From IMG/VR virus record IMGVR_UViG_3300006789_000205, positions 1 to 22,120 of that record: a stretch of DNA of 22,120 nt. One strand, given 5' to 3'. This stretch comes from a virus. Both the position numbers and the translations under genes were made by a program. Below the pieces are notes generated by a model that had not been told where the DNA came from, searched no databases, and was given only the letters and a program-made list of their open reading frames with translations. Below, in pieces: positions 4,431-22,120 of the stretch (positions are counted from its first letter, which is position 1; the number at the start of each line of letters is the position of its first letter).

Positions 4431-5131
4431 ATAAAGTAATTCTTGCATTTATAATGTTCTTTATTATGACGAGTGCAAGTTTTGCTGACAGTAATGTTTA
4501 CATTACTCAATCTGGTGCTAACTTAGATTTAGATATAACCATGGATGGAAATGGAAATGCTATCGGTGCATCAAACGATAGAACATTACTTACTGGTGCC
4601 GACTTAGATGTTGACATTGATCTAATTGGTGCTACTAATGTGATAACTGGTGATTTTATTGGAGCTGGTGAATCAGGCTCAGACGATCTAAAAATAAGTC
4701 AAACAGGTAGTACTAATACTACTGCGTTAAATGTTGGAGCATCGGCAGCAACGGATGATGTAAAAATCTTAGAAACTAGAGTAGGTAGTAGTGGTGCAAC
4801 TTCATACATAATTGGTTCATCAGCTACAGTTCAAGATGTTAGTGTTACTGTGGATGTTATTGGTGACGATATTGATATAGCAATTACTGAAAACTCATCT
4901 AGTTCTGGATCGGATAAAACAACTGATATTGATATTGGAACAGACAGTGATGATGTTGATATAGTTATTACTCATACTGGTGCAGGTGCACACAAAACAA
5001 AACTATTATGCACTGGTTCTTGTGCTGGTAGTGACTTTACAATGTCACAAACAGGAGCAAATAGTACTGATGTTGATTTAACAGTAACTAATGCCACTAG
5101 CTCAGATGTTGACATCACTATTACGGACTAA
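4427..5131 (+). CDS. Curlin-repeat (CsgA/CsgB-like) secreted protein
   Basis: A 234-residue exported protein with a signal peptide cleaved after residue 20 (SASFA before DSNVY). Curlin-type strands are clear at 25-30 (YITQSG), 89-94 (KISQTG) and 205-210 (MSQTGA). Between them are degenerate Asp/Ile/Thr-rich strands (DVDIDLIGATN, DVDIVITHTG, DVDITITD) in place of the usual Gln/Asn ladder. C195 and C199 precede the last clear repeat; classical curlins lack cysteines there. The ATG overlaps the csgG stop, as expected for a substrate co-made with its exporter. The very acidic strands suggest a beta-solenoid or an amyloid-like fold that may bind cations. It could be a nucleator (CsgB-like) or a fibre subunit; I cannot tell which. 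Confidence 0.75.
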   Translation: MNKVILAFIMFFIMTSASFADSNVYITQSGANLDLDITMDGNGNAIGASNDRTLLTGADLDVDIDLIGATNVITGDFIGAGESGSDDLKISQTGSTNTTALNVGASAATDDVKILETRVGSSGATSYIIGSSATVQDVSVTVDVIGDDIDIAITENSSSSGSDKTTDIDIGTDSDDVDIVITHTGAGAHKTKLLCTGSCAGSDFTMSQTGANSTDVDLTVTNATSSDVDITITD

Positions 5132-6227
5132 ATTATTTGTAGTATTATTAATACTACCCCATTTATCATATGGTGCAACAATTGGTAATGTAGTACTACA
5201 AGAAGGCGTTGCATCTGTTGAGAGAAAAGGAGCAGAATCTGATCTTAACCTAAACTCTGACATTATGTTTATGGATAATGTCAAAACTGGTAAAGGGGAA
5301 GTTGGTATCACATTTATAGATGATACTAACGTGGCAGTGAGTAGTCAAAGTTCTCTTGTTATAGATGATTTTGTTTATGATCCTAACAGTGCCAAGGGCT
5401 CTAAGTTAGTACTTAAAATAGCTCTTGGTACAGTTAGGTATGCAAGTGGTAATATAGCAAAGCTAAACAAACAAAATGTTGACATTCGTACCCCGACCGC
5501 CAGAATAGGTGTTCGGGGTACTGCTTTTAGTATGACTGTTGATGAGATAGGCCAATCGCTTATCATATTGCTACCAAATGCCGATGGGACTGTAGGAGAG
5601 ATATCGGTAGAGTCTGATATAGGTCAAGTGATATTAACTAGAGCGTTCCAAGCAACATCTGTTAGATCAAGAGAGGCTAATCCCACACGACCCAAGATGC
5701 TTGACTTGACAGAGAGTATGATTAATAATATGTTAATAATCAAACCACCTAAAGAAAAGACAGAGATAGCATCTGCTGAGGTTAAAGATAAGAAGAAAAA
5801 GAATCTAGGAAACTTCTTAGATGAAGCGAAGGAGATTGACAAAAATTGTTTAGAGGAAGAATGTGAAGGTCAAGAAGAAGAGGGCGGGTTTACCAGCTTA
5901 GATATTAATCCTTTAGACGTTAGTTTGTTATTAAATGTGCTAGAGGAATTGAACAAAAAATACAAAAAACCAAGTACAGTATTAACAAGAACAATATCTG
6001 GTACAGATGGCAGAGTTGCTGGATATAACCCAGATACTTTAGTAACAACTCTTATAGAAGGTGATATAGTACAATTGATTCGAGAGTATGATAGCAGTGT
6101 AATAGACATTACTTTAGATAGAGTAGATGGTCACAAAATTAACATAGATCAAAAAGGTAGCGTTGTGCCGGAGATAAGAACAGATGAAGCGGGTTATACT
6201 TCTACTATTGATATTACTATTCAGTAG
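5106..6227 (+). CDS. Exported FecR-domain protein in the curli-like operon
   Basis: The preferred start is the ATG at 5106, giving the signal peptide MLTSLLRTKLFVVLLILPHL and cleavage near SYG/ATIG; an ATG 15 nt upstream is also possible. A FecR domain follows (about residues 25-190 of the shorter form), with GEVGITFIDDTNVAVSSQS, KIALGTVRYASGNIA and the diagnostic VDIRTPTARIGVRGTAF. Next come a Lys/Glu-rich linker (about 205-260) and a C-terminal part ending in curlin-like strands (INIDQKGS, STIDITIQ). Many FecR proteins are inner-membrane anti-sigma regulators, but this form is exported and lacks a visible membrane helix after the signal, so it is more likely an envelope scaffold. It overlaps the curlin genes on both sides by 26 and 44 nt. 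Confidence 0.8.
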   Translation: MLTSLLRTKLFVVLLILPHLSYGATIGNVVLQEGVASVERKGAESDLNLNSDIMFMDNVKTGKGEVGITFIDDTNVAVSSQSSLVIDDFVYDPNSAKGSKLVLKIALGTVRYASGNIAKLNKQNVDIRTPTARIGVRGTAFSMTVDEIGQSLIILLPNADGTVGEISVESDIGQVILTRAFQATSVRSREANPTRPKMLDLTESMINNMLIIKPPKEKTEIASAEVKDKKKKNLGNFLDEAKEIDKNCLEEECEGQEEEGGFTSLDINPLDVSLLLNVLEELNKKYKKPSTVLTRTISGTDGRVAGYNPDTLVTTLIEGDIVQLIREYDSSVIDITLDRVDGHKINIDQKGSVVPEIRTDEAGYTSTIDITIQ

Positions 6228-7650
6228 TGTTGCTACTACTGCATATGCTGAAGATGTTCTGATTATACATCAGGGATATGGTAACACTGCCTCTAAATGG
6301 AAGAATAGATTAGAGGATGCTGGTCATACTGTAACATCTGTAAATACGAGTAGCTCTAGCTTTCCATCTAGTACCACATCTTACGAACAAATATATGATA
6401 TTAGATACACTAATACTCATGCTCTAACAACCTCACAAAAGAATGCATATCAGGCCTTACTTGCAAGAGGCGGAACTTTATTTCTTAATACCGAAAATCC
6501 TCACTCTAATCATCAAACACGAAACACGGGTATAGCTACTTTTATAACATCTTTAGGTGCTGGAACTGTAACTTATAGCAGTTCTTATGCTGGCAATGGT
6601 ACACAATGGAATACTACTCATTCATATGTAGATGGCATGAGTGGTACTTTGACTATGCCAGCTGCTGGTACATTCTCAGCACTAGGTAATGGAGATTGGT
6701 TGGTAAAGGATGCAGATGGAGATGTAGTAGCAGCAGTATGGTATGGTGAAGATTTAGATAATGCTTATAGTGACGGTATAATTTTTGTATTTACAGATAT
6801 TAATTATGCATCTCATAGTTCATACTATACAAATAACAACAAAGCATTTATGAATGCATTGCGTACTGCTCTAGCAAGTACATTCAACCAACCAACTAGC
6901 GCTGTAACCATATCAGCAGGACAAACTACAAAAAGAACTGCTGCAATGAATGCCAGTATAGAAAATGGTTGTAATGTTTGTATAGTACAATCAGGTGATA
7001 ATCCCACAATTAATATACAGCAAGATGGTAATAATAATTTTATTGTGGATAAAGATTGGTCTGGGCCTGCTACTTTAACAGGAGACAATCTCGCATTAAC
7101 TATAAAACAAGGCAACGTAACGACAACTGGTAGTAGTGATGAAAATGGAATAGGATTATATATAAATGGTAACAACACAAATCTAACAATAAATCAAGGC
7201 GACCATGCAAACGACCAAGGTGAGCATAAAATGGTAATAGATATTAATGGCGCTTCTAATGTTATGAATCTTACTCAATATGATGGTGGAACATTATCAA
7301 AACACTTTTTTGAAGCAGACATAGATGGTGGTAGTAATAACTTCACTGTTACACAAAAAGACAATGGCCAGAAGACAATGTTCTTAGATGTAAATGGAAA
7401 TAGTAATCAAGGAACCTTTATACAAGAGGACACTGGAACTCACTATCTTGACGTTACATTAGATGCAGACCACGATGTAGATATTACTCAACGTGGTAGT
7501 GGTAATCATGGAGCAAGAGTTAACTTAGATGGTCATAGTACTGATTTTGATTTAATTCAACAAGGTAGTAGTGCTCAATATTATAATTTAGACAACACCT
7601 GCAGCAATGCTTTAGGCTGTACAATCTCAACAACGCAAGGTACACAATGA
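6184..7650 (+). CDS. Exported two-domain protein: amidotransferase-like fold plus curlin repeats
   Basis: A 488-residue secreted protein with a signal peptide at 1-22 (TTAYA before EDVLII). Residues 23-230 resemble an extracellular class-I amidotransferase-like (Rossmann-type) domain: VLIIHQGYGNTASKW, YEQIYDIRYTNTHALT, LLARGGTLFLNTENP and GIIFVFTDINYAS. I see no Cys nucleophile where amidotransferases have one, so it is probably a structural or binding domain. Residues about 264-486 form a curlin-like array with QSG, QQDGNNN, INQGD, LTQYDGG, TQKDNGQ, IQEDTG, TQRGSGNH and QQGSS, spaced about 22-30 residues. Cys pairs C263/C266 and C473/C479 bracket the array. It likely leaves through the CsgG pore. 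The stop overlaps the cyclase start by 4 nt. Confidence 0.75.
   Translation: MKRVILLLLILLFSSVATTAYAEDVLIIHQGYGNTASKWKNRLEDAGHTVTSVNTSSSSFPSSTTSYEQIYDIRYTNTHALTTSQKNAYQALLARGGTLFLNTENPHSNHQTRNTGIATFITSLGAGTVTYSSSYAGNGTQWNTTHSYVDGMSGTLTMPAAGTFSALGNGDWLVKDADGDVVAAVWYGEDLDNAYSDGIIFVFTDINYASHSSYYTNNNKAFMNALRTALASTFNQPTSAVTISAGQTTKRTAAMNASIENGCNVCIVQSGDNPTINIQQDGNNNFIVDKDWSGPATLTGDNLALTIKQGNVTTTGSSDENGIGLYINGNNTNLTINQGDHANDQGEHKMVIDINGASNVMNLTQYDGGTLSKHFFEADIDGGSNNFTVTQKDNGQKTMFLDVNGNSNQGTFIQEDTGTHYLDVTLDADHDVDITQRGSGNHGARVNLDGHSTDFDLIQQGSSAQYYNLDNTCSNALGCTISTTQGTQ
6973..7641 (+). repeat. Curlin-type protein repeat array
   Basis: About nine to ten degenerate units, each with a beta strand holding a Gln followed by Gly/Asp-Asn (Q269, Q279, Q309, Q337, Q365, Q391, Q414, Q436, Q459, Q485). 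Units are about 22-30 residues apart. The DNA is diverged between units, so this is an old protein repeat and not a recent tandem duplication. Confidence 0.7.
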
Positions 7651-9698
7651 AAAAATGGATTATATCATTGGTTGTAATCTTGGTTCTATGTGGAATTCGT
7701 TTCACAGATCCTTGGTTTTTAGATATGGTGCGTATGAAAGCACTAGATCAACACCAACGAAATCAAACTCAACAAAGCCTATCCAACCTAGTTACAGTAG
7801 AAATCAATAATGAAACTATAAAAAAGAAGGGCCAGTGGCCTTGGGATAGAAATACTCTATCTAACGAAATTCTAAAACTGTATCAAGCAGGCGCAGCTAT
7901 AGTTGTACTTCCCATTCTATTTGCAGATGATGATCGGTTTGGTAAGGACAGAGCATTAGCAAGAGTTCTAAAGAAGACTCCCACTATTATAGGACAAATA
8001 CCTACCAACGGAAACGATGACACTGGTATTGTAAGAGGTGTTGCAACAATAGGCAAACCATGGAAAGGTTGGATATATCAATACCCAGGTGCCATTGGAC
8101 CTATACCTCTACTTGCAAAGAATGCTCATGCTGTAGGTATGATGATAATTGCACCAGAGAAAGATGGCGTGGTTAGACGTATGCCTCTGGTGGTTGCAGT
8201 TGGCGATACATTGTATCCATCAATGAGTATGGAAATACTACGAATAGCTGCAGGAGATATATCATACCAAATGAAGACGGGTATTGCTGGTGTCGAGAAG
8301 CTACGAATACCTAAATTTAAAATGATTGAAACAGATGCGCATGGTAACATATGGTTGGACTTCAAATGGAAAACACCAGTGTATCCACTACACGAAAAAC
8401 TTCCAGACCTTAAAGATAAGATCGTAATACTAAGTATGACAGCATCTGGCTTAGATAACCCTGTTTCAACTCCTGTGGGAGTCATACAGTCACATGATCT
8501 CATTGGCGCATCTCTTGCTACTATGATGACAGGACGAAACATAACACGTCCATTCTGGACTGATCTTGCCGAACTAACAGTCAGTGGTGTAGGAGCATTA
8601 ATTCTTACAGTAGTTGTACTTACACTTGCATGGTATTTTGGAGCCATGTTGTTGCCTGTGTTCCTTGTTGGATCATTCTATGGTTCGTCCTATCTATTCA
8701 CCGAATATAGTTATCTGGTAGATTGGTCTTACCCTGTTATCACCATGTTTGTAGTTTGGGCATTAGCAGCCTTTATGCGGTTCATGGAAGAATATAAACA
8801 GAAGATGGAAATTAAGAAACAGTTTGCTGGCTATGCAAGTCCAACTGTCGTTAGATTACTACAAGAAAATCCTTCACTAATCAAGGATGGTATGAAAAAA
8901 GAGATTAGTATTTGCTTCTCTGATCTCCGAGGGTTTACTCCATTAGGTGAGAGCTTTGGTGATGATGTCAAAGGACTAACAAACATCATGAATGGATATA
9001 TGGATGCAATAACGCAACCTATCCTAGACTCTAATGGTATGGTGATTAAATACATTGGTGATGCAAGTATGCATGTCCATAATGCACCTATAGAAGATCC
9101 AGACCATCCTAAGAGTGCAGTTAAGACTGGGTTACAAATGTTGGAGGCAGTGGAGAAGTTTAATGATAAAATTGTATCAGAGGGCAAACCACCTATAGGC
9201 ATGGGAGCTGGTATAAATACTGGACTTGGATACCTTGGAGAAATGGGTAGTACTCTGCGGCACAGTTATGACGTATTAGGAGACTCTGTTTCAACTGCGG
9301 CTAGAATTGAAAGTAAGTGTAAAGAGTATGGTTGTCTGTTGTTGGTTGGTGAAGCCACATATGATAGAACCAAAAATGATTTCTTTTACCTAAAGGTTGA
9401 TGAACTAGCAGTGAAAGGTAAAACTGTTGGCATTCGTATCTATACTGTTCTGTGTGAAATGGAATGGATGATGAATAATACTAATTGGGGTATGGGTGAG
9501 AACCAACATGAAAGAATGCATGAATATTATCGTGCTCAACAGTTTGATAATGCCATTCGACTGTGTAATGACTTAATGGATGAATTTGATGGAAGGATGA
9601 AGAACTACTATACTATGTGGATCGAGCGTTGTGAATATATGAAGACCCAACCACTTGAGAAAGATTGGAATGGCGTGTTTATTGCAACGACCAAATAG
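7647..9698 (+). CDS. CHASE2-domain class III nucleotide cyclase (putative adenylate cyclase)
   Basis: A 683-residue receptor-like enzyme. An N-terminal membrane helix (5-17) precedes an extracytoplasmic CHASE2 sensor (about 25-300; VEINNETIKKKGQWPWDR, then PEKDGVVRRMP). Three membrane helices follow (about 309-330, 332-350, 358-378), then a short coiled linker and a class III cyclase domain (about 415-600). Metal Asp residues are D426 (FSDLRGFT) and D472 (KYIGDA). K468 and D542 sit at the usual adenine-selecting positions, favouring cAMP over cGMP. The transition-state Arg is R553, but the usual Asn three codons after GDxV is S549, which may lower activity. A C-terminal extension (600-683) resembles a short helical repeat. 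The start overlaps the curlin-like gene (ATGA). It would make a second messenger in the host cytoplasm in response to an envelope signal. Confidence 0.88.
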   Translation: MKKWIISLVVILVLCGIRFTDPWFLDMVRMKALDQHQRNQTQQSLSNLVTVEINNETIKKKGQWPWDRNTLSNEILKLYQAGAAIVVLPILFADDDRFGKDRALARVLKKTPTIIGQIPTNGNDDTGIVRGVATIGKPWKGWIYQYPGAIGPIPLLAKNAHAVGMMIIAPEKDGVVRRMPLVVAVGDTLYPSMSMEILRIAAGDISYQMKTGIAGVEKLRIPKFKMIETDAHGNIWLDFKWKTPVYPLHEKLPDLKDKIVILSMTASGLDNPVSTPVGVIQSHDLIGASLATMMTGRNITRPFWTDLAELTVSGVGALILTVVVLTLAWYFGAMLLPVFLVGSFYGSSYLFTEYSYLVDWSYPVITMFVVWALAAFMRFMEEYKQKMEIKKQFAGYASPTVVRLLQENPSLIKDGMKKEISICFSDLRGFTPLGESFGDDVKGLTNIMNGYMDAITQPILDSNGMVIKYIGDASMHVHNAPIEDPDHPKSAVKTGLQMLEAVEKFNDKIVSEGKPPIGMGAGINTGLGYLGEMGSTLRHSYDVLGDSVSTAARIESKCKEYGCLLLVGEATYDRTKNDFFYLKVDELAVKGKTVGIRIYTVLCEMEWMMNNTNWGMGENQHERMHEYYRAQQFDNAIRLCNDLMDEFDGRMKNYYTMWIERCEYMKTQPLEKDWNGVFIATTK

Positions 9699-9724
9699 AA
9701 AGGTCCCATAGGAGAGCTACCACA

Positions 9725-9943
9725 ATGATTCCGCTTAGTAACTATAATTGGTTTGGCAAGCCACCGTTAAAAGAACAACTTAAAGACATTTTAATGACGA
9801 CATGGATACTCTTTCTATGTCCTTTACTCGTAGGTGTTACCGCTATTGCTGTGATTTGGGGACTGTCTGTCTTTACAGTCGACTCAAATAAATCAATCCA
9901 GTCTTATATATTGCCATGGCATAATGAGATAAAAGATAAATAG
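9725..9943 (+). CDS. Small membrane protein after the cyclase
   Basis: A 72-residue protein. The ATG at 9725 is preferred because TAGGAGAG lies about 10 nt upstream; an in-frame ATG 60 nt earlier would overlap the cyclase end and lacks a ribosome site. One hydrophobic segment of about 27 residues is present (ILMTTWILFLCPLLVGVTAI and beyond), with a short polar N-terminus (SNYNWFGKPPLKEQ) and a polar tail. It is separated from the cyclase by 26 nt and is probably the last gene of that transcript. I recognise no family. Partnership with the cyclase or the two small membrane proteins at the operon start is possible but not shown. Confidence 0.6.
   Translation: MIPLSNYNWFGKPPLKEQLKDILMTTWILFLCPLLVGVTAIAVIWGLSVFTVDSNKSIQSYILPWHNEIKDK
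9935..9942 (+). promoter_or_regulatory. Candidate late promoter box (GATAAATA)
   Basis: The same near-consensus octamer as at 2532, 38 nt before the start of the Cys-rich gene. It overlaps the last codons of the previous gene, a common place for T4-type late promoters. It suggests separate late transcription of the Cys-rich peptide. Confidence 0.4.
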
Positions 9944-9979
9944 TACACGGTGTAGCAACAGAGAAAGGAAGGTGATCTA

Positions 9980-10084
9980 ATGTCTTGCGAGAACCAAGAA
10001 TGCCTCAGTCCAGCGTGTAAATGCGATCCTTGTGAATGCACAGAAGATGACCCTTGTCCCTGTTGTGTTGGTACCCCGGACTAA
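9980..10084 (+). CDS. Cysteine-rich metallothionein-like mini-protein (34 aa)
   Basis: A 34-residue protein with nine cysteines: MSCENQEC, then CKCDPCEC, then DPCPCC near the end. CxC, CxxC and CC spacing with many acidic residues is typical of proteins that bind Zn, Cu or Fe-S through thiolates. Ribosome site GGAAGG lies before the ATG. It sits alone between a late-promoter-like box and a strong terminator, so it appears to be a one-gene transcript. I recall similar small CENP-type Cys-rich proteins in marine phage genomes but no tested function. Metal buffering, redox control, or binding to a host zinc protein are all possible. Confidence 0.65.
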   Translation: MSCENQECLSPACKCDPCECTEDDPCPCCVGTPD

Positions 10085-10110
10085 TTACTGGCATTTTTCT
10101 CAATAACTAA

Positions 10111-10137
10111 ATACCGGCGCCCCCGCCGGTATTTTTT
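10111..10137 (+). terminator. Strong intrinsic terminator after the Cys-rich gene
   Basis: Perfect 9-bp arms ATACCGGCG and CGCCGGTAT surround a CCCC loop, followed by a run of T. It is very GC-rich against the AT-rich background. It ends the curli-like and Cys-rich gene region and insulates the lysis block. Confidence 0.9.
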
Positions 10138-10156
10138 ATATGAATAGGGATGGACT

Positions 10157-10642
10157 ATGGGATTTAAATTAGCTGCCGTGATGGCTCTTGTCACAGGATT
10201 AATACTGGCAGGATTCTATTGGTATTATAATGATACTCAAGAAAAACTAGCTATCTTGCATGAGAATAATGCAAAGCTAGAAACAGCTGCAAAACTTCAA
10301 AAACAAGCTATAGAAGAAATGGAACAGCAGGTTGAACTTGTTAACGCGATAGCTAAAACTACATCAGAAGAAATAGCAAAATCCAGAGAGAAGATAGAAG
10401 TAATAAACAAAAAGTTTAACAAACAAAGTAAGCTGTTGGGTTCTCGTGACATGGGTAAACTAGCAATAAGTAAACCAAGACCGATAAAAAAGATAGTCAA
10501 TCGTGGCACTGTGGATATAATGAGGTGCTTTGAAATTGTATCTGGAAAATCATTGACGGAGAAAGAGAAAAATGCGGAAAAGCCAAGTCAACTTAATCGT
10601 AGTTGCCCTGATATCGCTAATCCTAATAGGGTGCAGCGCTAA
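10157..10642 (+). CDS. Inner-membrane spanin-like protein (Rz-like)
   Basis: A 161-residue protein with an N-terminal membrane anchor (about 5-24) and a long charged helix (about 26-95, NNAKLETAAKLQKQAIEEME) predicted to form a coiled coil in the periplasm. A C-terminal domain with DIMRCFEIVSG and a final NRSCP places C124 and C150 as a possible disulfide. The next gene, a lipoprotein, starts inside its 3' end in another frame with a 71-nt overlap. That is the classic Rz/Rz1 nested arrangement that fuses inner and outer membranes at the end of lysis. The i-spanin assignment rests on topology and overlap, because spanins diverge fast. Confidence 0.75.
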   Translation: MGFKLAAVMALVTGLILAGFYWYYNDTQEKLAILHENNAKLETAAKLQKQAIEEMEQQVELVNAIAKTTSEEIAKSREKIEVINKKFNKQSKLLGSRDMGKLAISKPRPIKKIVNRGTVDIMRCFEIVSGKSLTEKEKNAEKPSQLNRSCPDIANPNRVQR

Positions 10643-11051
10643 CGTAAAACAGATTGAACTGAAGGTTTCTCCTGTTAAACCAATACCTCTTGTTTTGCCT
10701 GAGGTAGATAAAATTAACTTAGATGATATAGAGTGGTTTGTAATAACAAAAGGAAACGCCGAAGCAGTTTTTGCAGAGTTAGAGAAGAAGAATTATGATG
10801 AAGCATTGTTTGGGTTGACAGATAAAGGATACGAAAACATATCAGTGAATATGGCCAAGATCCTTACTCTGGTACAGCAACAAGAATTGATTATAGGAGC
10901 ATACAAGAAATATCATGCAAAGCAAAGTGGAGCAATATCACAACACAATAAAGAACAAAGTGAATCGTTGGAAAGACAAAAGAAAGAAAGCAAAAAAAAT
11001 GATTCAGGAACATCCATTTTTAAAAGACTTCTCCCCTGGGGACCTAAATGA
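10572..11051 (+). CDS. Outer-membrane lipoprotein spanin-like protein (Rz1-like)
   Basis: A 159-residue lipoprotein. Residues 1-20 form a lipoprotein signal ending in LIG before the lipidated C21. A Pro/Val-rich stretch follows (KVSPVKPIPLVLPEV), then a conserved block (INLDDIEWFVITKGNAEAVF, then LFGLTDKGYENISVNMAKIL) that I recall in marine T4-like phages beside i-spanin genes. The tail is charged and basic. The ATG, with GGAG about 10 nt upstream, lies within the i-spanin gene. The role is to bridge the envelope with the upstream protein during lysis. It is larger than typical Rz1, so some extra function is possible. Confidence 0.7.
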   Translation: MRKSQVNLIVVALISLILIGCSANVKQIELKVSPVKPIPLVLPEVDKINLDDIEWFVITKGNAEAVFAELEKKNYDEALFGLTDKGYENISVNMAKILTLVQQQELIIGAYKKYHAKQSGAISQHNKEQSESLERQKKESKKNDSGTSIFKRLLPWGPK

Positions 11052-11817
11052 CGTAGAGTATGCTAGATATTTCTTTGCTGTGTGTTCTTTTTTAGCTTAT
11101 GGTGGCGATGAGGTTGCCCACTTGTTTGAGGCAGCAGGTTTCCCACAGCATAAGTTAATCAGTCACGAAGGGGCACAGTGTCACGTAATTTCAAATAGAG
11201 AATCAATTGTCTGGATCTTTAGAGGTACAGAGCCTACCCAAAAAAGTGACATATGGGCAGACTTAAAAGCGTGGAAGGTAAAAAGTGAACAGAAGGGATT
11301 GTGTAATCCTATGGGCAGTGTTCATGCAGGATTTAAAGAAGAATTAGACAAAATATATGTTGACACAGAAGCAACCATAGCTGATAATAAGAAGAAGCTA
11401 TACATAACAGGTCACAGCTTGGGTGGTGGAATGGCTACACTTGCTGCTGGAAGACAACAACAAAGATGTGTATATCTTTATACCTATGGTTCTCCGAGAG
11501 TAGGTAATAGAGAGTATGGCTTTAATTTCAATGTTAATTGTTTTAGAGTTCAGAATAACAATGACATAGTACCGAGAATGCCACCGTGGATTCTGGGATA
11601 CAAACACCTTGGAACAAATGTATATATCAATCACTATGGATATATCAGGAAATTGGGTGTATGGCAGACGATGAAAGATAAAATGAGAGGACATATTACT
11701 GCTATGCTTAAATTCGAATTTTTTGATGGTATGCGTGATCATGGATCTTCCGCTTATGCTAAATATCTGTGGAGAGAATGGGATTACTCAAGGCAAGTTA
11801 AAAAGTGGGAGGGATAG
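10999..11817 (+). CDS. Class 3 lipase-like hydrolase
   Basis: A 272-residue alpha/beta hydrolase of the lipase class 3 type. The nucleophile elbow TGHSLGGG holds S140; the acid is D189 in NNNDIVPRMPP; the base is probably H248 in RDHGSSAYAKYL. An oxyanion-side block VWIFRGTEP is also present. The start is uncertain: an in-frame ATG at 10915 would add 28 mostly basic residues and lie deep in the spanin-like gene, whereas 10999 has a purine-rich leader. No signal peptide is visible, so any access to envelope lipids would need membrane collapse by holin. It lies between spanin-like genes and a virion-like gene. It may hydrolyse host glycerolipids late in infection or be packaged in the particle. 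Confidence 0.85.
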   Translation: MIQEHPFLKDFSPGDLNDVEYARYFFAVCSFLAYGGDEVAHLFEAAGFPQHKLISHEGAQCHVISNRESIVWIFRGTEPTQKSDIWADLKAWKVKSEQKGLCNPMGSVHAGFKEELDKIYVDTEATIADNKKKLYITGHSLGGGMATLAAGRQQQRCVYLYTYGSPRVGNREYGFNFNVNCFRVQNNNDIVPRMPPWILGYKHLGTNVYINHYGYIRKLGVWQTMKDKMRGHITAMLKFEFFDGMRDHGSSAYAKYLWREWDYSRQVKKWEG

Positions 11818-12125
11818 TGGCACAGCGTCCTAATACACTAGAGGTTGAAACAGGTACATTTGAATTTATTGTTGATGGTGAGCTAGTAACATATAACAAC
11901 TATCTCGAAATACCTGAAGATTTAGATTTCGAACACGTGATTAGGTTCGAAGCTGATCTGCCTGCGCCGGTCGGTGAAATAGCATATGATGAAGAAGGAA
12001 ATACATCTGAGTGGTCGCCAGGAGTTATATTGAGACATCACACAGATGAGCAACATGATGATTTAGCAGTGTGGAATGTTAGATTGCAGCAGTTAATGGA
12101 GAAAGAACGTGCCCGCAGTATGTAG
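11817..12125 (+). CDS. Conserved phage protein, putative baseplate or spike-associated
   Basis: A 102-residue acidic protein. The chosen start is the GTG that overlaps the lipase stop (TAGTG); the purine block GGGAGGG lies only 3 nt before it, so a GTG 12 nt upstream is an alternative. The product has a beta-rich first half (VETGTFEFIVDGELVTYNNY) and then GEIAYDEEGNTSEWSPG. This resembles small proteins I recall preceding the PAAR tip gene in marine myophages. Its end overlaps the PAAR start by 17 nt. The function is unknown; linkage suggests a tail tip part or chaperone. Confidence 0.55.
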   Translation: MAQRPNTLEVETGTFEFIVDGELVTYNNYLEIPEDLDFEHVIRFEADLPAPVGEIAYDEEGNTSEWSPGVILRHHTDEQHDDLAVWNVRLQQLMEKERARSM

Positions 12126-12405
12126 AGGAGCCACTATCGATGCTGATGTTGTTCATTGTTCACAGCCAAGGAGGCTGGCAATGAGTCCAAATGTTCGTGT
12201 TAATGGTACTGGAATATCAAGACAGGGTGATGTTAATACATCGCATCTCTTACCAGGCTCTCCTTGTCCAGCTCACCAGGCTGTGATTACAGCTGGTTCA
12301 TCTACTGTAAGAATTAATGGCCAAGGATGTGGGAGAATTGGTGATCCTATAACTGCATGTACTCAAGTTGCTACAGGCAGTAGCAACGTGTTCGCGGGGG
12401 GATAA
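12109..12405 (+). CDS. PAAR-domain baseplate spike tip protein
   Basis: A 98-residue PAAR protein, the type (T4 gp5.4) that sharpens the central tail spike. It starts at a GTG with GGAG 7 nt upstream and begins MPAVCRG, as PAAR proteins often do. Family blocks are SPNVRVNGTGISRQGD, HLLPGSPCPAHQ, STVRINGQGCGRIGD, and a final ATGSSNVFAGG. His and Cys residues (H17, C18, H46, C53, H56, C74, C84) can supply the metal site that pins the tip. A second in-frame ATG at 12181 with a strong ribosome site would give a shorter form. The stop overlaps the next ATG (TAATG). Confidence 0.85.
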   Translation: MPAVCRGATIDADVVHCSQPRRLAMSPNVRVNGTGISRQGDVNTSHLLPGSPCPAHQAVITAGSSTVRINGQGCGRIGDPITACTQVATGSSNVFAGG

Positions 12406-12680
12406 TGGTAGAGCTATTAGATCGCATGTTTGGCGACACACTATGGATTTATACTGGTATCGTTGGTAGTATCTTCGGTGCCCTTTTTATTGCGTATATG
12501 AGAGACACACGAATTGGCTTGTGGTTTTATGGTAAGTGGGATTTCGTATTAGATTTTGTTCGCGATCGTTATGGGTGGACTTGGTTCGATCAAGATGTAG
12601 ATGCATGGAGAAAGGTCAATCCTAATATTGCTAAGAAGATAGACGAAATAGAAACCAGAGTAAAAGAGTTGGAGAAATAA
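12405..12680 (+). CDS. Small membrane protein after the PAAR gene
   Basis: A 91-residue protein with one hydrophobic helix at about 12-32 (LWIYTGIVGSIFGALFIAYM). A Trp/Tyr/Asp-rich soluble part follows (GLWFYGKWDFVLDFV, GWTWFDQDVDAWRKVNP), then a charged helix ending in ETRVKELEK. It resembles a protein I recall next to spike or lysis genes in marine T4-like phages, of unknown function. It may be a holin-like or envelope protein. It is translationally coupled to PAAR through TAATG and is followed immediately by another membrane gene. Confidence 0.6.
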   Translation: MVELLDRMFGDTLWIYTGIVGSIFGALFIAYMRDTRIGLWFYGKWDFVLDFVRDRYGWTWFDQDVDAWRKVNPNIAKKIDEIETRVKELEK

Positions 12681-12681
12681 A

Positions 12682-12987
12682 GTGTCTGAGTTATCAGAGA
12701 GGGATCTACTAAAAAGATTGGACATTGCTATTACTAAATTGACAGATGTATCTAATGACATTAAACAAGTACTTGCTGTTCATGAACAGAAGTTTGAGAA
12801 TCAAGATGGAGTTAATACAGCATACTATGATCAAATAGAAAAACTTCATCAAAGAGTTGGTGATCTTAGAGATGAAATGATGAAGAAGATGACTGCTATA
12901 GAAAGGTGGCGATGGATAATGTTGGGAGCCGCTGGTGTAGTAGGATTTTTACTAGCTAACACATCTATCGTTGACTTGTTGAGATAA
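12682..12987 (+). CDS. Coiled-coil protein with C-terminal membrane anchor (XhlA-like layout)
   Basis: A 101-residue protein starting at GTG, one base after the previous stop; GGAG lies 10 nt upstream inside the previous gene. Residues 5-75 form a helix with heptad spacing (LLKRLDIAITKLTDVSNDIK, then IEKLHQRVGDLRDEM). A single membrane helix is at about 80-97 (WIMLGAAGVVGFLLA). This resembles the layout of XhlA-type holin partners, although the sequence match is weak. Its place between spike and protease/holin-like genes suits a lysis accessory. Hypothesis only. Confidence 0.55.
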   Translation: MSELSERDLLKRLDIAITKLTDVSNDIKQVLAVHEQKFENQDGVNTAYYDQIEKLHQRVGDLRDEMMKKMTAIERWRWIMLGAAGVVGFLLANTSIVDLLR

Positions 12988-13042
12988 TTAGTATAGAGTA
13001 GAAGTATTGATAGTTATAACGCACAAACAAAGGAATTAAAAA

Positions 13043-13942
13043 ATGCGTATTCATAAAAAGATTTGCCACAGTGTGTGCTCATTGCTAGCTATGATGGCAC
13101 TAGTGGCCCTACCGCAGCCTTCTATCGCGGCTGAGGTAGTTACGGAAGCTCCTGTTAAAATGATTACAGAAATGCTTTACCCCACAGTGATGGTGGATAC
13201 AGGTAAAGGAGTGGGTTCCGGAACCGTTATTTTTAGTGCCGCGCGGGCACACGAGTCCTGGAAAGATGAAAAGATTTGGTCTCTAGTCTTGACAAACCAC
13301 CATGTTGTTAAGGATGCAATTTCTATTTCCGAAGATTTTGATCCGAAAAAAGGCAAATCTATTCAAAGTGAAACACGCAGGCCAGTTCATGTTCGAATAT
13401 GGGACTATAATGATTACAGCACTGCTGTAGGTACTACCGGTAGAGTTGGTCGTATCTTGGCATGGGACAAAAACAGAGACTTAGCACTGCTTCGCTTGGA
13501 TGATAAAGAAAGAGTGTTAAAGAATATTGCTACGTTCTGGCCAGAAGATGTGGGTGGACCATATCTTTTTCAACAGACCTGGGCAGTAGGAAGTGGTATG
13601 GGAAATCCACCCTATCCAACAGAAGGTCTATTGAGTGGAATTGCTGGAAAGGATCAACAAGGACGTCCGTTGTATCTGTCTAGTGCACCTATTATCTTTG
13701 GAAATAGTGGTGGTTCTTTATGGGCCCACAGTGCTAAAAGAGATAAGTATGAAATGATCGGAGTTCCTTCTATGGTAGGAGCGTATGGTTGGGGTGTTGC
13801 TATCACTCATATTGCATGGTCCAGGCCTATATCTGAAATCAGAGCTTTCCTAAGAGAGAACGAATACGGGTTTGTTGTAGGTGATGAAGACACCGCTAAG
13901 AAAGATCCTAAGGACGATGACAAAAAGGACGATGATGACTAA
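13043..13942 (+). CDS. Exported trypsin-like (HtrA-type) serine protease
   Basis: A 299-residue protein with a signal peptide (1-30, PSIAA before EVV), so it should reach the periplasm. The chymotrypsin-fold triad is visible: H87 (LTNHHVV), D146 (KNRDLALLRL) and S222 (FGNSGGSL). GVGSGTVIF and the spacing match the S1C/HtrA class, but no PDZ domain follows; the protein ends in an acidic tail of repeated Lys/Asp (KKDPKDDDKKDDDD). Ribosome site AAAGGAA precedes the ATG after a 55-nt gap, the largest in this block. Its stop overlaps the holin-like gene. It may cleave envelope or superinfecting-phage proteins, or mature the curli-like proteins. The substrate is unknown. Confidence 0.85.
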   Translation: MRIHKKICHSVCSLLAMMALVALPQPSIAAEVVTEAPVKMITEMLYPTVMVDTGKGVGSGTVIFSAARAHESWKDEKIWSLVLTNHHVVKDAISISEDFDPKKGKSIQSETRRPVHVRIWDYNDYSTAVGTTGRVGRILAWDKNRDLALLRLDDKERVLKNIATFWPEDVGGPYLFQQTWAVGSGMGNPPYPTEGLLSGIAGKDQQGRPLYLSSAPIIFGNSGGSLWAHSAKRDKYEMIGVPSMVGAYGWGVAITHIAWSRPISEIRAFLRENEYGFVVGDEDTAKKDPKDDDKKDDDD

Positions 13943-16287: not shown

Positions 16288-17025
16288 ATGTCTGTGTCAA
16301 AGAATAAATGGGCAACATTAGTTGATAAGATGGGTGACGACCTAACAGTTGTCAATGCTGCTAGAGTAAGTTTTAATAAGAATGTTGATTACAGTGAAGA
16401 TGAGTATAAGTTTCAACCTATTGCGATGAATGTTCAAGCTAGGACAAAAGTTCCAAAGGTACCACAATTAAGAAAGGAAGACGAACGCCTTGTAAAGTAT
16501 TTGGCTGAGCATGGGCATTGGAGTCCTTTTAGTCATTGCTTTCTTCAATTCCATATCAAAGCTCCTATATTTGTAGCTCGCCAACTTGTAAAGCATCAAG
16601 TTGGTCTGGCATGGAATGAGATATCGAGGCGGTATGTAGATGATGAGCCAGAATTCTATGAGCCTGAAGAGTGGAGACTTGCTGCAGAGAACAAGAAGCA
16701 AGGTTCCTCTGATGAAACTGTAGAGTACAGTATTGAGCCGGCTTATATTCACGCGACACAGTGTTATAATAATATGTTAGGCTTAGGTATTGCTCCGGAG
16801 ATGGCCAGAATGGTTTTACCACAAAGCCTGATGACAGAATGGTATTGGTCAGGATCGTTGTACGCTTTTGCGAGAGTATGTAATTTAAGATGTAAGTCTG
16901 ATGCGCAAAAAGAGACTCGTTTGGTGTGTGAAGATATATCGAATCAAATAAAAAAACTGTTTCCAGTTAGCTGGAAATATTTAACAGATTTAGCGGAGGA
17001 GAAAGAAGTTGCTACAGCAAGTTGA
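16288..17025 (+). CDS. thyX: Flavin-dependent thymidylate synthase ThyX
   Basis: A 245-residue enzyme that makes dTMP from dUMP using FAD and folate. The start at 16288 has a strong AGGAAGG site; a longer frame reaching into the primase is unlikely. Family blocks are NAARVSF, HGHWSPFSH, VARQL, and KHQVGLAWNEISRRYVDDEPE. The ThyX motif is usually RHR then S; here R-H-R is K102-H103-Q104, a variant I recall from marine phages. The serine S113 and RRY are kept. An insertion near residues 38-60 contains AMNVQARTKVP. It overlaps the reductase gene by 17 nt, so the two are co-translated to supply DNA precursors. Confidence 0.92.
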   Translation: MSVSKNKWATLVDKMGDDLTVVNAARVSFNKNVDYSEDEYKFQPIAMNVQARTKVPKVPQLRKEDERLVKYLAEHGHWSPFSHCFLQFHIKAPIFVARQLVKHQVGLAWNEISRRYVDDEPEFYEPEEWRLAAENKKQGSSDETVEYSIEPAYIHATQCYNNMLGLGIAPEMARMVLPQSLMTEWYWSGSLYAFARVCNLRCKSDAQKETRLVCEDISNQIKKLFPVSWKYLTDLAEEKEVATAS

Positions 17026-18982
17026 AGCCACACCACAGCAAAAGTTAAATGGTAAATTACCAATTCAAAGCAATTATTTACCTACATTGTACCAGCAATT
17101 TATTCATCTGTCTAGATATTCAAGATGGATCCAAGAAGAAGAACGGAGAGAGAGCTGGCCAGAAACAATAGACAGATATGTTGAATTCTTTGAGGATCAT
17201 CTGCGAGAGAACTACGGATATGAATTAGAACCTAATGTAAAGAAGGAGATCCAGGAAAATATACTGAGTCTTCAAGTTATGCCTTCAATGCGAGCAATGA
17301 TGACTGCTGGTCCAGCACTGAAGAGAGACAATATAGCTGGATACAACTGTGCATTCATTGCAATCAATAAGATTAAGTCGTTCGATGAAGTGCTATACAT
17401 ATTGATGAATGGAACCGGTGTTGGATTCAGTGTAGAGAGACAGTATGTAAATGATTTGCCATCAGTAGCAGATGAGTTTCATCAAACAGATACATTAATC
17501 ACTGTAGCAGATAGTCGATTGGGTTGGGCAAAAGCATTGCGTGAGCTAATAGGACTATTATATGTTGGACAAGTTCCTGCATGGGACACATCTAAGGTTC
17601 GACCAGCTGGATCAGTATTGAAGACGTTCGGAGGTCGTAGTAGTGGACCAGAGCCATTAGAAGACTTATTTCATTTCTGTATATCTAAATTTAAGGGAGC
17701 GATGGGAAGAAAGCTCACGTCGTTAGAATGTCATGATATCATTTGCAAAATCGCCGAAATTGTTGTCGTTGGTGGTGTTCGTCGTAGTGCTCTCATTTCT
17801 CTCTCTAATCTTAGTGATGACCGGATGAGGCATGCGAAAGCAGGCCAGTGGTGGGAGAACGAAGGGCAACGAGCATTGTCCAACAATAGTGCATGCTACA
17901 CAGAGAAGCCAGACATTGGTATCTTTATGGAAGAGTGGGTAGCACTGTATAATAGTAAGTCTGGTGAACGAGGAATATTTAATAGAGAGTCTGCTAAGAT
18001 GCAAGCAGCTCGTAATGGTAGACGTGATGCAGATAGAGACTTCGGTACGAACCCATGCTCAGAGATTATTCTTAGGACAAATGAGTTTTGTAATTTAACA
18101 GAGTGTGTTGTGAAAGAGACAGACACGCTTAAAACATTGAAGAGTAAAATTCGTCTTGCTACGATACTTGGAACATTTCAATCAACACTAACAGAGTTTA
18201 AATACATATCAAAGGAATGGAAGGCTAATTGCGAGGAGGAGAGACTGCTAGGTGTTTCAATGACTGGTATTATGGATAACCCATTAACGAATGGAAAAGA
18301 GGATGGATTGGATAAGAGACTTAGTGCTCTCCGTGAGATTGCTATTGAAACAAATAAAGAATGGGCAACTAAACTTGGGATCAATCCTTCAGTTGCTATT
18401 ACATGCGTTAAGCCGAGCGGCACAGTATCTCAGTTGGTTGACTCTGCTTCTGGTATTCATGCCCGTCATAATCCTTATTATATTCGTACAATCCGTGCGG
18501 ACAAGAAAGACCCTCTCTGCAAAATGATGACCGATGCTGACTTCCCCGTCGAGGATGACATTACGAGGCCTTTGCATACCAGTGTCTTTTCATTCCCTGT
18601 CAAATCGCCGGAGAACGCTGTTAATCGTATGGATATGAGTGCTATTGAGCAACTCGAGCTATGGTTGACATATCAGAAGCATTATTGTGAGCACAAGCCA
18701 TCTGTTACTATATCTGTTAGAGAGAGTGAGTGGATTGAAGTAGGCGCGTGGGTATATGCGAATTGGGAATGGATGAGTGGAGTATCTTTCCTGCCGTTCT
18801 CAGACCATACATATAGACAAGCTCCTTATCAAGATATAAATAAGAAGCAATATGAAGAGTTGGAAAAGAGGATGCCTAAGGGAGTTGATTGGATGACTTT
18901 GTTGGCTCGGTATGAAAGTACAGATATGACTGAAGGAGCCCAAGAGCTGGCTTGCTCGGCAGGAGGATGTGAGATTGTCTGA
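17009..18982 (+). CDS. nrdJ: Class II (B12-dependent) ribonucleotide reductase
   Basis: A 657-residue monomer-type reductase starting at TTG, with GGAGGAG about 8 nt upstream and no usable ATG nearby. It reduces ribonucleoside triphosphates with adenosylcobalamin. C114 (GYNCAF) and C361 match the redox pair, and C350 and E352 (TNPCSEI) the thiyl radical Cys and Glu, with the same 408/410/419 spacing as the Lactobacillus enzyme. KPSGTVSQL is the substrate loop. C649 and C654 near the end (ACSAGGCEIV) are the swinging thiols. It is shorter than the Lactobacillus enzyme (about 740). It works with any oxygen level but needs B12 from the host. ThyX is upstream. Confidence 0.93.
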   Translation: MLQQVEATPQQKLNGKLPIQSNYLPTLYQQFIHLSRYSRWIQEEERRESWPETIDRYVEFFEDHLRENYGYELEPNVKKEIQENILSLQVMPSMRAMMTAGPALKRDNIAGYNCAFIAINKIKSFDEVLYILMNGTGVGFSVERQYVNDLPSVADEFHQTDTLITVADSRLGWAKALRELIGLLYVGQVPAWDTSKVRPAGSVLKTFGGRSSGPEPLEDLFHFCISKFKGAMGRKLTSLECHDIICKIAEIVVVGGVRRSALISLSNLSDDRMRHAKAGQWWENEGQRALSNNSACYTEKPDIGIFMEEWVALYNSKSGERGIFNRESAKMQAARNGRRDADRDFGTNPCSEIILRTNEFCNLTECVVKETDTLKTLKSKIRLATILGTFQSTLTEFKYISKEWKANCEEERLLGVSMTGIMDNPLTNGKEDGLDKRLSALREIAIETNKEWATKLGINPSVAITCVKPSGTVSQLVDSASGIHARHNPYYIRTIRADKKDPLCKMMTDADFPVEDDITRPLHTSVFSFPVKSPENAVNRMDMSAIEQLELWLTYQKHYCEHKPSVTISVRESEWIEVGAWVYANWEWMSGVSFLPFSDHTYRQAPYQDINKKQYEELEKRMPKGVDWMTLLARYESTDMTEGAQELACSAGGCEIV

Positions 18983-19470: not shown

Positions 19471-19701
19471 ATGAATCAAGATGATGAGATAGTGGAAAAG
19501 GATTCCTTATCCTGTGAAGTGTGTGGAGCTGTTTGCGAAGTTCAATATCAAGAGGATGATACAGATGGGCACTCCCCTGGTTATTGTCCCTTCTGTGGCC
19601 ATGAGATGTATGATGAATTGTCTACAGATGACTTCGGCATGGAAGCAAGTGAGCGTGCCGAGTTCGGAGGTGGTGTAGAATGGATAGACGAAGATCAGTA
19701 A
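19471..19701 (+). CDS. Small zinc-ribbon-like protein
   Basis: A 76-residue acidic protein with ribosome site AAAGG before the ATG at 19471; a longer ORF from 19384 would overlap the previous gene. It has two CxxC knuckles, C15-x2-C18 (LSCEVCGA) and C39-x2-C42 (YCPFCGHE), plus C22, which is the pattern of a zinc ribbon. The remainder is rich in Asp and Glu, ending GGGVEWIDEDQ. It may be a nucleic acid or transcription factor-binding adapter. Its stop lies inside the start region of the resolvase gene. No specific family is recognised. Confidence 0.65.
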   Translation: MNQDDEIVEKDSLSCEVCGAVCEVQYQEDDTDGHSPGYCPFCGHEMYDELSTDDFGMEASERAEFGGGVEWIDEDQ

Positions 19702-20263
19702 TGTAATTGGAATTGATTATAGTACAACAAGTCCAGCCATAACGATTAAGGTAGATGACGACTACGACGTTTACTACCTAACATCAAAAAAGAAATCGAT
19801 ATGTGAGATTGATCATGAGCAGTTTATGTTCAGAGGATCACTTTTGCCAGACCTATCAGGCATAGACAGATATGCCTACATATCTTCGTGGGCTGTAGAT
19901 ATAATAGACACATATAAAACAGATAAGATTATGTTAGAGGACTATGCATATGCTGCGACCGGCCGTGTTTTTAATATAGGAGAGAATACAGGTATATTGA
20001 AATATCGGCTACGTAACAAAGCTAATATCGTATTAGTTACGCCCACAGAAGTCAAAAAGTTTGCTACCGGCAAGGGGAATGCCAAGAAGAGCAATATGCT
20101 AGAGGCATTTATTAATAAGACATATGTTGATCCAAGAGAGATACTGGATTACCATGGTGAGAACCCTATATCAGATATTGTGGACAGTTATTTTATATGT
20201 AATTATAAGGAGGCCATCGATGGCAAAGCGAACAGGCAAGGGCAGAAGAAAGATAGGCTCTAA
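19694..20263 (+). CDS. RuvC-like Holliday junction resolvase (unusual start)
   Basis: A 189-residue RuvC-fold nuclease. Acidic residues match RuvC: D8 (VIGIDYSTTSPA), E82 (MLEDYAY), D161 and D164 (PISDIVDSYF). It would cut branched DNA before packaging. The frame is open from 19688, after a TAG, but holds no ATG, GTG or TTG until 19826, which would remove D8. The likeliest first codon is ATC at 19694, giving a product reading (M)SNVIGID; ATT at 19706 is an alternative. Another option is a +1 frameshift from the zinc-ribbon gene, which ends in the same bases. The long open frame and conserved motifs show the protein is real. Confidence 0.78.
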   Translation: MSNVIGIDYSTTSPAITIKVDDDYDVYYLTSKKKSICEIDHEQFMFRGSLLPDLSGIDRYAYISSWAVDIIDTYKTDKIMLEDYAYAATGRVFNIGENTGILKYRLRNKANIVLVTPTEVKKFATGKGNAKKSNMLEAFINKTYVDPREILDYHGENPISDIVDSYFICNYKEAIDGKANRQGQKKDRL

Positions 20264-20312
20264 GAAGAGAAAAGCTAGGAATAAGAATAGAAATAGGCTT
20301 AAAGCGAGATAG
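20220..20312 (+). CDS. Very basic 30-residue protein
   Basis: A small gene with a near-perfect ribosome site (AAGGAGG, 6 nt before ATG), overlapping the last 44 nt of the resolvase in another frame. Of 30 residues, 16 are Lys or Arg (MAKRTGKGRRKIGSKKRKAR then NKNRN). I recall short proteins starting this way after the RuvC gene in T4-like marine phages. Such a peptide should bind nucleic acid or an acidic protein surface. The function is unknown. The strong ribosome site and the position argue that it is translated. Confidence 0.7.
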   Translation: MAKRTGKGRRKIGSKKRKARNKNRNRLKAR

Positions 20313-20315
20313 ATT

Positions 20316-20918
20316 ATGGATATTATAAATATTGTAGACATTGAGAGTTTGATATATGTAGGACGTGAATCATTAGAAATGATGTTCTTGACGTTAATGG
20401 TCGTCACTGCAATTGTCGTTGACAAGAAGATACTTGCCTCAGCGATGTTAGGATTGCTGTGTGGACTGTTAGGTGGCTTTGCATTAGGTGAGCTGCTACA
20501 TGATTATGAAGTTCTGATGTATGCTATGTTGAGTGGATTGATGCTCTACTTGTTCTTCACCAGCGCAAATCTACCAGTACATATCAAGGGACATGTTGAT
20601 GCTATTGCGAATCGCAATAAGACAAACATGGTAGGTTATCTCGTTATATGGTTCATATACTTTCGCGAAAGCATGGAAGTGTTCACATTCATGTTTCAGC
20701 GGTATAATAATACGTGGGAAGGGTGGACAGGTGCAGGTCTAGCAGTAATCATTGTTGCCGGCCTCTATAAGTGGTTGGTACAATATAAGGACACTAAGGC
20801 TCTATTTACGATAACACGATATGCATTCCTGGCATTTGCAATATGGTTTGGGTATGAAGCACTAGAGCACGCGTGCATACATGCATGTGATCTCGCATTA
20901 CATAAGGGAGGAGGCTAG
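20316..20918 (+). CDS. FTR1/EfeU-like iron permease-like membrane protein
   Basis: A 200-residue membrane protein with about six helices. Two RExxE motifs, R17-E18-S-L-E21 and R117-E118-S-M-E121, lie exactly 100 residues apart in two similar helices, as in the two halves of FTR1 (REGLE in TM1 and TM4). The glycine patches (GLLCGLLGGFALGELL; GWTGAGLAVIIVAGL) fit the same two-fold arrangement. It is shorter than EfeU (276) and ends in a His/Cys tail (EHACIHACDLALH) that could bind metal. It starts 3 nt after the basic protein gene and is followed by an iron-dependent oxygenase. Iron transport is inferred from the motifs, not proven. Confidence 0.65.
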   Translation: MDIINIVDIESLIYVGRESLEMMFLTLMVVTAIVVDKKILASAMLGLLCGLLGGFALGELLHDYEVLMYAMLSGLMLYLFFTSANLPVHIKGHVDAIANRNKTNMVGYLVIWFIYFRESMEVFTFMFQRYNNTWEGWTGAGLAVIIVAGLYKWLVQYKDTKALFTITRYAFLAFAIWFGYEALEHACIHACDLALHKGGG

Positions 20919-20920
20919 AA

Positions 20921-21604
20921 ATGTTACCAACAGGTGGAACTCCAGTTAAGAAATCTCTAAGGGTTGATATTAATTGTATAAGAGAAGAGTTTGAGGCAAC
21001 ACGTGATAAAGTTCCGTGGCAATCAGGAATGACGTGTATTAATTACAAAGATGAAGATGAACCACACAGGCGTCATACTGGTCTAAGTGCTCCACCGGTA
21101 GAAGAAGGATGGCATGAAGGGAGTTTAAAAGAGGGAGCTGCTCATCATCGTAGATACACAAATTATAATCCTGAGTGGGATGGTACATTAATAAAATCAA
21201 TACTAGAGTACTATGATTGTTTTGCTGGAAGGATTATGTTAAGGAGTCCTTGTACGTGCTATACATGGCATGATGATAGATCCATGACATCAAGTTCTGC
21301 TAGTGTAGATGAGGATTTGTCGTTTGAAAGTTTCTATAAGCTCCACATTCCAATATATAGTGATCCTGGCAACTACTTTGCATTTGATAGTGGTCTGTAT
21401 AGATTAGAGCCTGGTTGGGTTTATATAGTTGATCCGACCCGAGAGCATACATTCTTTAATGCAAGCATGGAGGACAGATATCATATTATGGCTGGCACGG
21501 ATATGAAAAAAAGAGAGGCTGCTAAGTGGAGCAACAAAGACCGTGGCAAGCCTGCAGGATTTGATTCTATAAAACATGAACTTAATAAAGAATTTTTTAT
21601 ATAA
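20921..21604 (+). CDS. 2-oxoglutarate/Fe(II) oxygenase, Asp/Asn hydroxylase-like
   Basis: A 227-residue soluble protein with ribosome site GGAGGAGG just before it. The second half has a double-stranded beta helix pattern: GRIMLRSPC, the metal motif H117-x-D119 (WHDDRS), KLHIPIYSD, LEPGWVYIVD, the distal H176 (REHTFFN) and R186 (DRYHIM), the probable oxoglutarate anchor. This matches aspartyl/asparaginyl beta-hydroxylase-like enzymes. The first 85 residues hold His/Arg-rich segments (PHRRHTG, HHRRYTNYN) of unknown role. The substrate could be a protein side chain. The upstream FTR1-like gene may supply iron. Phage oxygenases of this fold are frequent in marine myophages. Confidence 0.7.
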   Translation: MLPTGGTPVKKSLRVDINCIREEFEATRDKVPWQSGMTCINYKDEDEPHRRHTGLSAPPVEEGWHEGSLKEGAAHHRRYTNYNPEWDGTLIKSILEYYDCFAGRIMLRSPCTCYTWHDDRSMTSSSASVDEDLSFESFYKLHIPIYSDPGNYFAFDSGLYRLEPGWVYIVDPTREHTFFNASMEDRYHIMAGTDMKKREAAKWSNKDRGKPAGFDSIKHELNKEFFI

Positions 21605-21607
21605 ATA
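21600..21607 (+). promoter_or_regulatory. T4-type late promoter box (TATAAATA)
   Basis: A perfect match to the T4 late consensus TATAAATA, 34 nt before the next start codon, overlapping the end of the oxygenase gene. It suggests that the following gene is a late, probably structural, gene and that this phage uses a gp55-like sigma factor. Confidence 0.75.
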
Positions 21608-21641
21608 GCTTTGTCGACAATATATAACAGGGAAAATCATT

Positions 21642-22120
21642 ATGGCACTTGTTTCGGACAAATATATAACAATACTCGATGATCACTACGGATCACTTGA
21701 TGTTGATGGATGGATCACTACTCTCAAGACAGACTTCGATAAGTATGTTGCCGGTACTCAACCGGCTGGGTATCCACAATATGATAGCTATGATTCTAGC
21801 TACATAGCGACTGATGCAGAAGGTAAGCTCGTAAGACCTAATTTTGTTGATGGAACAAAGAATGTTGCTCATTCTTTAGCAGGTAATCATACTGGTCAAG
21901 CATGGTCATTTGCGGACGAAGTTATAGCGAGATTTGAGTTACCAGATGATTCTACTCGGCGGGTTGGGTATATGACAACATTAGCTAATAAAGATACAGG
22001 ATGGATTGGTATCACGTCTTCCGATCCAAGATCAGCTGGATATACAACTGGTGGGATCGCTTGGTTAGAGTTGGTAATTACCCCTTCGGCTTCGAGGCAA
22101 ATTAAGTTTAGAGATCAAAT
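21642..22120 (+). CDS. Unidentified protein, probably virion-related (3' partial)
   Basis: Starts at an ATG with AGGGAA upstream and continues past the end of the window for at least 159 codons. The product begins MALVSDKYITILDDHYGSLD and contains YVAGTQPAGYPQYDSYDSS, LANKDTGWIGIT and GGIAWLELVIT. The style is beta-rich and Tyr/Asp/Gly-rich without signal peptide or membrane segment, as in virion fibre or decoration proteins. The perfect late promoter before it supports a structural role. I recognise no family. Confidence 0.6.
   Translation, partial: MALVSDKYITILDDHYGSLDVDGWITTLKTDFDKYVAGTQPAGYPQYDSYDSSYIATDAEGKLVRPNFVDGTKNVAHSLAGNHTGQAWSFADEVIARFELPDDSTRRVGYMTTLANKDTGWIGITSSDPRSAGYTTGGIAWLELVITPSASRQIKFRDQ

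Follow-up and report, generated by a model that had tools for sequence, protein, structure and literature searches.

A predicted six-helix member of the FTR1/EfeU permease superfamily encoded by T4-like viruses

Can a phage carry its own iron permease, and what would it gain from it? The question is raised by a gene near the end of a 22,120-nucleotide stretch of DNA from a virus of ocean bacteria (IMG/VR record IMGVR_UViG_3300006789_000205, positions 1 to 22,120; hereafter the window). Iron limits much of ocean productivity, and phage iron acquisition is an open question, as reflected in the 'Ferrojan Horse' idea. Pelagiphages alter host iron-uptake genes, one phage raising and another lowering them (PMC12753301), and a phage gene for an iron permease is therefore plausible. 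The literature searched contained one mention of an FTR1-family gene in a prophage region predicted in a cyanobacterium (PMC5177637) and no report for lytic phages, an absence that is not proof. Metagenomes have also led to reports of iron transport encoded by giant viruses that infect eukaryotes (PMC9270025), but these are unrelated viruses with unrelated hosts, and the transporter family is not stated there.

Anatomy and kinship of the viral protein

The gene (20316..20918, plus strand) encodes a membrane protein of 200 amino acids with six predicted transmembrane (TM) helices, which we place in the FTR1/EfeU superfamily. A preliminary description of the window had noticed two RExxE motifs 100 residues apart in a six-helix protein, and this reading holds. 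The protein has exactly two such motifs, RESLE in TM1 (residues 17-21, 20364..20378, plus strand) and RESME in TM4 (residues 117-121, 20664..20678, plus strand), spaced by 100 residues. Two RExxE motifs arise in a fraction of 4e-5 of composition shuffles of the protein, and no other ORF of more than 100 amino acids in the fetched viral contigs and the window carries two (352 ORFs scanned in all). The AlphaFold model built with the joint alignment (pLDDT 80, pTM 0.64) has six helices, at residues 9-32, 37-57, 60-83 (continuing to 99), 103-126, 134-155 and 160-198. The protein is hydrophobic; loops L1, L3 and L5 hold most of the positive charge, whereas acidic residues lie mostly in the N-terminus, L2 and the C-terminus, which suggests that the N-terminus is outside. 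Given this N-out topology, both RExxE motifs would fall within the outer halves of their helices, TM1 and TM4. Two further conserved stretches, both on the plus strand, are a HIKxHV motif in the predicted cytoplasmic TM3-TM4 loop (residues 89-94, 20580..20597) and YEALEH (residues 180-185, 20853..20870), which is predicted to mark the outward end of TM6 and is followed after a short distance by the end of the viral proteins. The window protein ends in a short, Cys/His-bearing tail (20871-20915, ACIHACDLALHKGGG), absent from the other 13 members of the viral family, that might bind metal.

Scans of IMG/VR with the window protein and with alignments of it yielded 22 loci, plus one further partial locus from a later scan. 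Distinct complete viral permeases number 14; identity with the window protein is 52-81% among the remaining 13. On its own, the window protein matches family models weakly and below the curated cut-offs (TIGR00145, E 6.5e-4; PF03239, E 0.02). Across the family, the EfeU model NF041756 is matched by 11 of the 14 members (best E 3.2e-7), TIGR00145 by 13 (best E 7.7e-7) and PF03239 by seven (best E 1.5e-5), and locus L007 passes the Pfam cut-off once the matches in its frame are summed. The next-best families match at most three members each, with best E-values of at least 0.014. The profile search against FTR1 and related families, proposed earlier as a check, thus returns iron models as the best ones.

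Profile-profile alignment with hhalign leads in the same direction. The viral profile aligned with seven cellular FTR1/EfeU proteins at P 5e-5 and with 86 cellular FTR1/EfeU sequences at a probability of 80% (P 1.5e-5, score 42.0), query positions 1-170 falling on template positions 4-197. The latter alignment is collinear from TM1 to TM6 and has both RExxE motifs in register. As controls, 60 column shuffles, 100 hydropathy-preserving column shuffles and the reversed profile were used. The shuffles reached at most 24.2, compared with 42.0 for the real profile; the reversed profile scored 32.6 over a shorter stretch, above the shuffles, and part of the hhalign score is therefore a generic membrane-protein signal. 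In a MAFFT alignment of 14 viral and 33 cellular proteins (47 sequences), R17, E18, E21, R117, E118 and E121, that is, the R and both E residues of each motif, are invariant, as are G50, L72, F125 and F164. Judged by its sequence, the viral protein almost certainly belongs to the FTR1/EfeU superfamily, as a remote but genuine member. The FTR1-type permease named in the preliminary description is therefore borne out by family profiles, by profile-profile alignment with its controls, by motif register and topology, and by the iron-sulfur (Fe-S) gene context described below.

With EfeU (YcdN, the permease of EfeUOB) the viral proteins have 13-21% identity. They share with it the order and placing of TM1 to TM6, the RExxE motifs in TM1 and TM4, an acidic TM2-TM3 loop and an F-x-x-T that is conserved where TM6 begins. 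Standard EfeU and Ftr1 have seven TM helices, whereas six are predicted here: EfeU has about 276 amino acids and extends about 70 residues, including TM7, beyond the viral end, whereas all complete viral members stop just after TM6 at a length of 180-200 amino acids and lack TM7. Because six helices are predicted and all complete members end at this point, the protein is classified as a predicted six-TM variant within the superfamily and not as a standard EfeU. Unlike EfeU, the viral permeases have their own HIKxHV motif, and no EfeO gene was found. Dual RExxE motifs are common to the viral permease and the yeast, fungal and diatom Ftr1/FTR proteins (OFeT family), where they have been tied to iron permeation (PMC4909778, PMC4460010); yeast Ftr1 has seven TMs and works with a multicopper oxidase, neither of which occurs in the viral system. 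The FTR1/EfeU permeases that have been characterised import, and their systems depend on an oxidase or on a partner in the periplasm (PMC9174327). Genes for EfeO (PF09375), P19 (PF10634) and Cupredoxin_1 (PF13473) were not found in 14 viral records, which are fragments; with no partner gene found, the viral permease would act alone or with host proteins.

An internal 3+3 repeat was not detected when the halves of the permease were compared by hhalign (P 0.067, nine columns). Foldseek searches with two AlphaFold models of the permease gave no match in the PDB at E <= 0.001, the top hits being generic MFS/ENT proteins, and the second model gave none in BFVD at the same threshold. These fold searches are uninformative, since an EfeU sequence search matched no chain in the PDB and hence no FTR1 structure.

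The viral family and its genomic setting

Within the viral family, the named residues of both RExxE motifs and of the HIKxHV and WFGYEA stretches are invariant. The first RExxE motif takes the form RE[AS]LEMM and the second RE[SF]ME, forms that set the viral proteins apart from EfeU. H, I, K, H and V of HIKxHV are kept in every viral member and do not appear in those cellular FTR1/EfeU rows that were displayed; E181 and E184 of YEALEH are likewise invariant. dN/dS is about 0.06-0.28 in eight of nine relative pairs with amino-acid changes, so that selection must be keeping the protein; the pair L016/L017, nearly identical and differing at four nucleotides, carries no information on this point. 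The permease gene is under purifying selection across about 50% divergence.

The permease relatives sit on large T4-like viral contigs, up to 184 and 200 kb, with T4-like replication genes. The primase of the window has up to 47% identity with T4-like cyanophage primases, and the DNA polymerase encoded next to the permease of L012 has its nearest matches in Sinorhizobium and Agrobacterium jumbo phages. A search of 50,697 phage records brought up no family member, and PHROGs holds no convincing family for the permease. A pattern scan revealed no full-length EfeU in viral contigs; MT835771, the sole phage record with EfeU, was rejected: it is a gut scaffold that has not been verified, and the gene lies at its edge. 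In GTDB genomes, a pattern scan found no close cellular relative of the viral permease. HMM search of 398 Pseudomonadota genomes gave weak matches only, which were FTR1-like with two RExxE motifs at four of seven loci. Among these genomes, the viral profile is matched best by the cellular FTR1-like proteins L115, L117, L119 and L120, with REVLEM as the first motif and REG[SG]E as the second. A tblastn match in L004 that ran past the stop codon was discarded: the L004 protein ends in AHIL, and further stops follow.

The surroundings of the permease gene differ between loci. It lies between ferredoxin and NifU in L005, directly after ferredoxin in L006 and L007, with a FeS_assembly_P gene further upstream, before a WYL_2/CDGSH-like gene in L011, and after a gene resembling, by eye, a T4-type sliding clamp in L012 and L015-L023. 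Eight contigs of 36-200 kb were compared for distance. An A-type Fe-S carrier is present in all eight; the permease is at most 7.4 kb from Fe-S genes in four, adjoining ferredoxin in three, and 30-73 kb away in four. Ferredoxin with DUF3470 was found in seven, NifU in three and FeS_assembly_P in two of these eight contigs, and another permease-bearing contig has one more FeS_assembly_P. None of the four Fe-S families tested was found in the 22-kb window, which is a fragment. The co-occurrence of permease and Fe-S genes may in part be a trait of the phage group, because other marine phages also have Fe-S genes (P-SSM2 NifU; PMC8940887). Like the permease, such genes (P-SSM2 NifU; marine-virome nifU and ferredoxin; PMC8940887) are iron-related auxiliary genes of marine T4-like phages; their products assemble or use clusters, whereas the viral permease would bring iron in.

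Two of these neighbourhoods may be given in more extent. Positions 7643-10712 of the 184-kb viral contig L005 hold a cluster in which the FTR1-like permease is accompanied by ferredoxin-DUF3470, NifU, an A-type Fe-S carrier and two further genes. In L011, the gene that directly follows the permease (8692-9063) joins a WYL_2 domain to a CDGSH-like iron-sulfur end.

Elsewhere in the window, positions 3621-9698 hold a gene run unusual for phage. It comprises CsgG (PF03783, E 4e-57), a repetitive protein that is curlin-like by eye, a protein with a FecR domain, a DUF4350-like protein whose curlin repeat is marginal, and a CHASE2-adenylate/guanylate cyclase (E 2e-37 and 4e-17); it looks like a phage-borne cluster for curli-type secretion and signalling. 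Genes for a class 3 lipase, a PAAR protein and a trypsin-like protease lie near one another at 10915-13942. The preliminary description had also considered PAAR as a destination for iron, and no such link was found.

Substrate, direction and the neighbouring oxygenase

Iron transport by the viral permease is probable. FTR1 relatives for other metals exist, such as the lead-uptake protein PbrT. That the viral protein is an FTR1-fold protein for another metal or cation (e.g. Mn or Pb), its RExxE glutamates being kept for that ion, would agree with such relatives, with 13-21% identity to EfeU and with a conserved HIKxHV motif of its own. We nevertheless regard it as unlikely, since the R and both E are kept in both motifs, the best family models are iron ones and the genomic context is one of Fe-S and ferredoxin genes.

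Small phage membrane proteins often work by exclusion. A non-transporting FTR1-like protein, which would bind or modulate a host permease or exclude a superinfecting second phage at the membrane, fits this frequent role as well as the missing TM7 and partner genes, but it is quite unlikely: few residues are as well conserved as those of the putative iron site, purifying selection acts across about 50% divergence, and an exclusion protein would have no need of both motifs.

Two base pairs downstream of the permease, on the same strand, follows a gene for an Asp_Arg_Hydrox-like 2-oxoglutarate (2OG)/Fe(II) oxygenase (20921..21604, plus strand). The preliminary description took it for an iron-dependent hydroxylase. 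A 2OG/Fe(II) oxygenase of Asp_Arg_Hydrox type is plausible, as H117-x-D119, H176 and R186 occur in the expected order; the match to Asp_Arg_Hydrox (PF05118, E 6.5e-4), at 20.0 bits, stays below the gathering cut-off of 22.6, and the phmmer match to the PDB beta-hydroxylase 7v4f is weak (E 0.013). Adjacency and the Fe(II) that the oxygenase would use might speak for permease and oxygenase as a dedicated two-gene module. This is very unlikely, since among the loci found the pair is confined to the window virus and L001, its near-identical sibling, which also holds the single viral relative of the oxygenase detected by pattern scan; in other relatives with readable sequence, AlgH-like, NifU, ABM-like, WYL_2/CDGSH-like or other genes lie downstream of the permease. 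The functional pairing proposed earlier is thus not upheld by synteny, and the phage Fe-S and ferredoxin genes of the relatives are better supported associates. A promoter and terminator scan of 19700-21750 gave nothing useful above chance.

Ftr1 has its N-terminus outside, and the predicted N-out topology of the viral protein agrees with it, which speaks against an iron exporter or leak. Such a protein, releasing iron or depolarising the cell late in infection, is highly improbable: the sequence does not give the direction of transport, but characterised FTR1/EfeU members import (PMC9174327).

A proposed role in infection

On balance, we consider it likely that the viruses encode a minimal six-TM iron permease of FTR1/EfeU type, an auxiliary gene product raising host iron during infection. 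Infected cells would produce the permease and insert it, N-terminus out, into their inner membrane. Iron would enter where the TM2-TM3 loop and the end of TM6 carry acidic residues and would then pass inward via a site formed by the RExxE glutamates, those in TM1 and those in TM4 being predicted to sit at about the same depth on the outward side. The permease may work alone or with periplasmic iron-binding proteins of the host. The extra iron would serve iron-dependent steps of virus production: in the relatives, Fe-S proteins might be built with phage ferredoxin, NifU and A-type carrier, and in the window virus iron would perhaps also reach the Fe(II) oxygenase. A ribonucleotide reductase is encoded at 17009-18982 of the window, with Pfam matches to class II (B12-dependent) domains; it does not readily explain an iron permease, because class II enzymes need no iron.

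More tentatively, it is possible that the six-TM FTR1 proteins form a virus-only clade that takes up iron with neither an oxidase nor a periplasmic partner and supplies it to Fe-S assembly proteins encoded by the phages themselves (ferredoxin, NifU, A-type carrier, FeS_assembly_P). If this is true, marine phages have an iron-supply line from membrane to cofactor. A phage with its own permease would make phage iron acquisition directly testable. Moreover, a natural six-TM FTR1 without TM7 and without the known partners would help to define the minimal core of the family.
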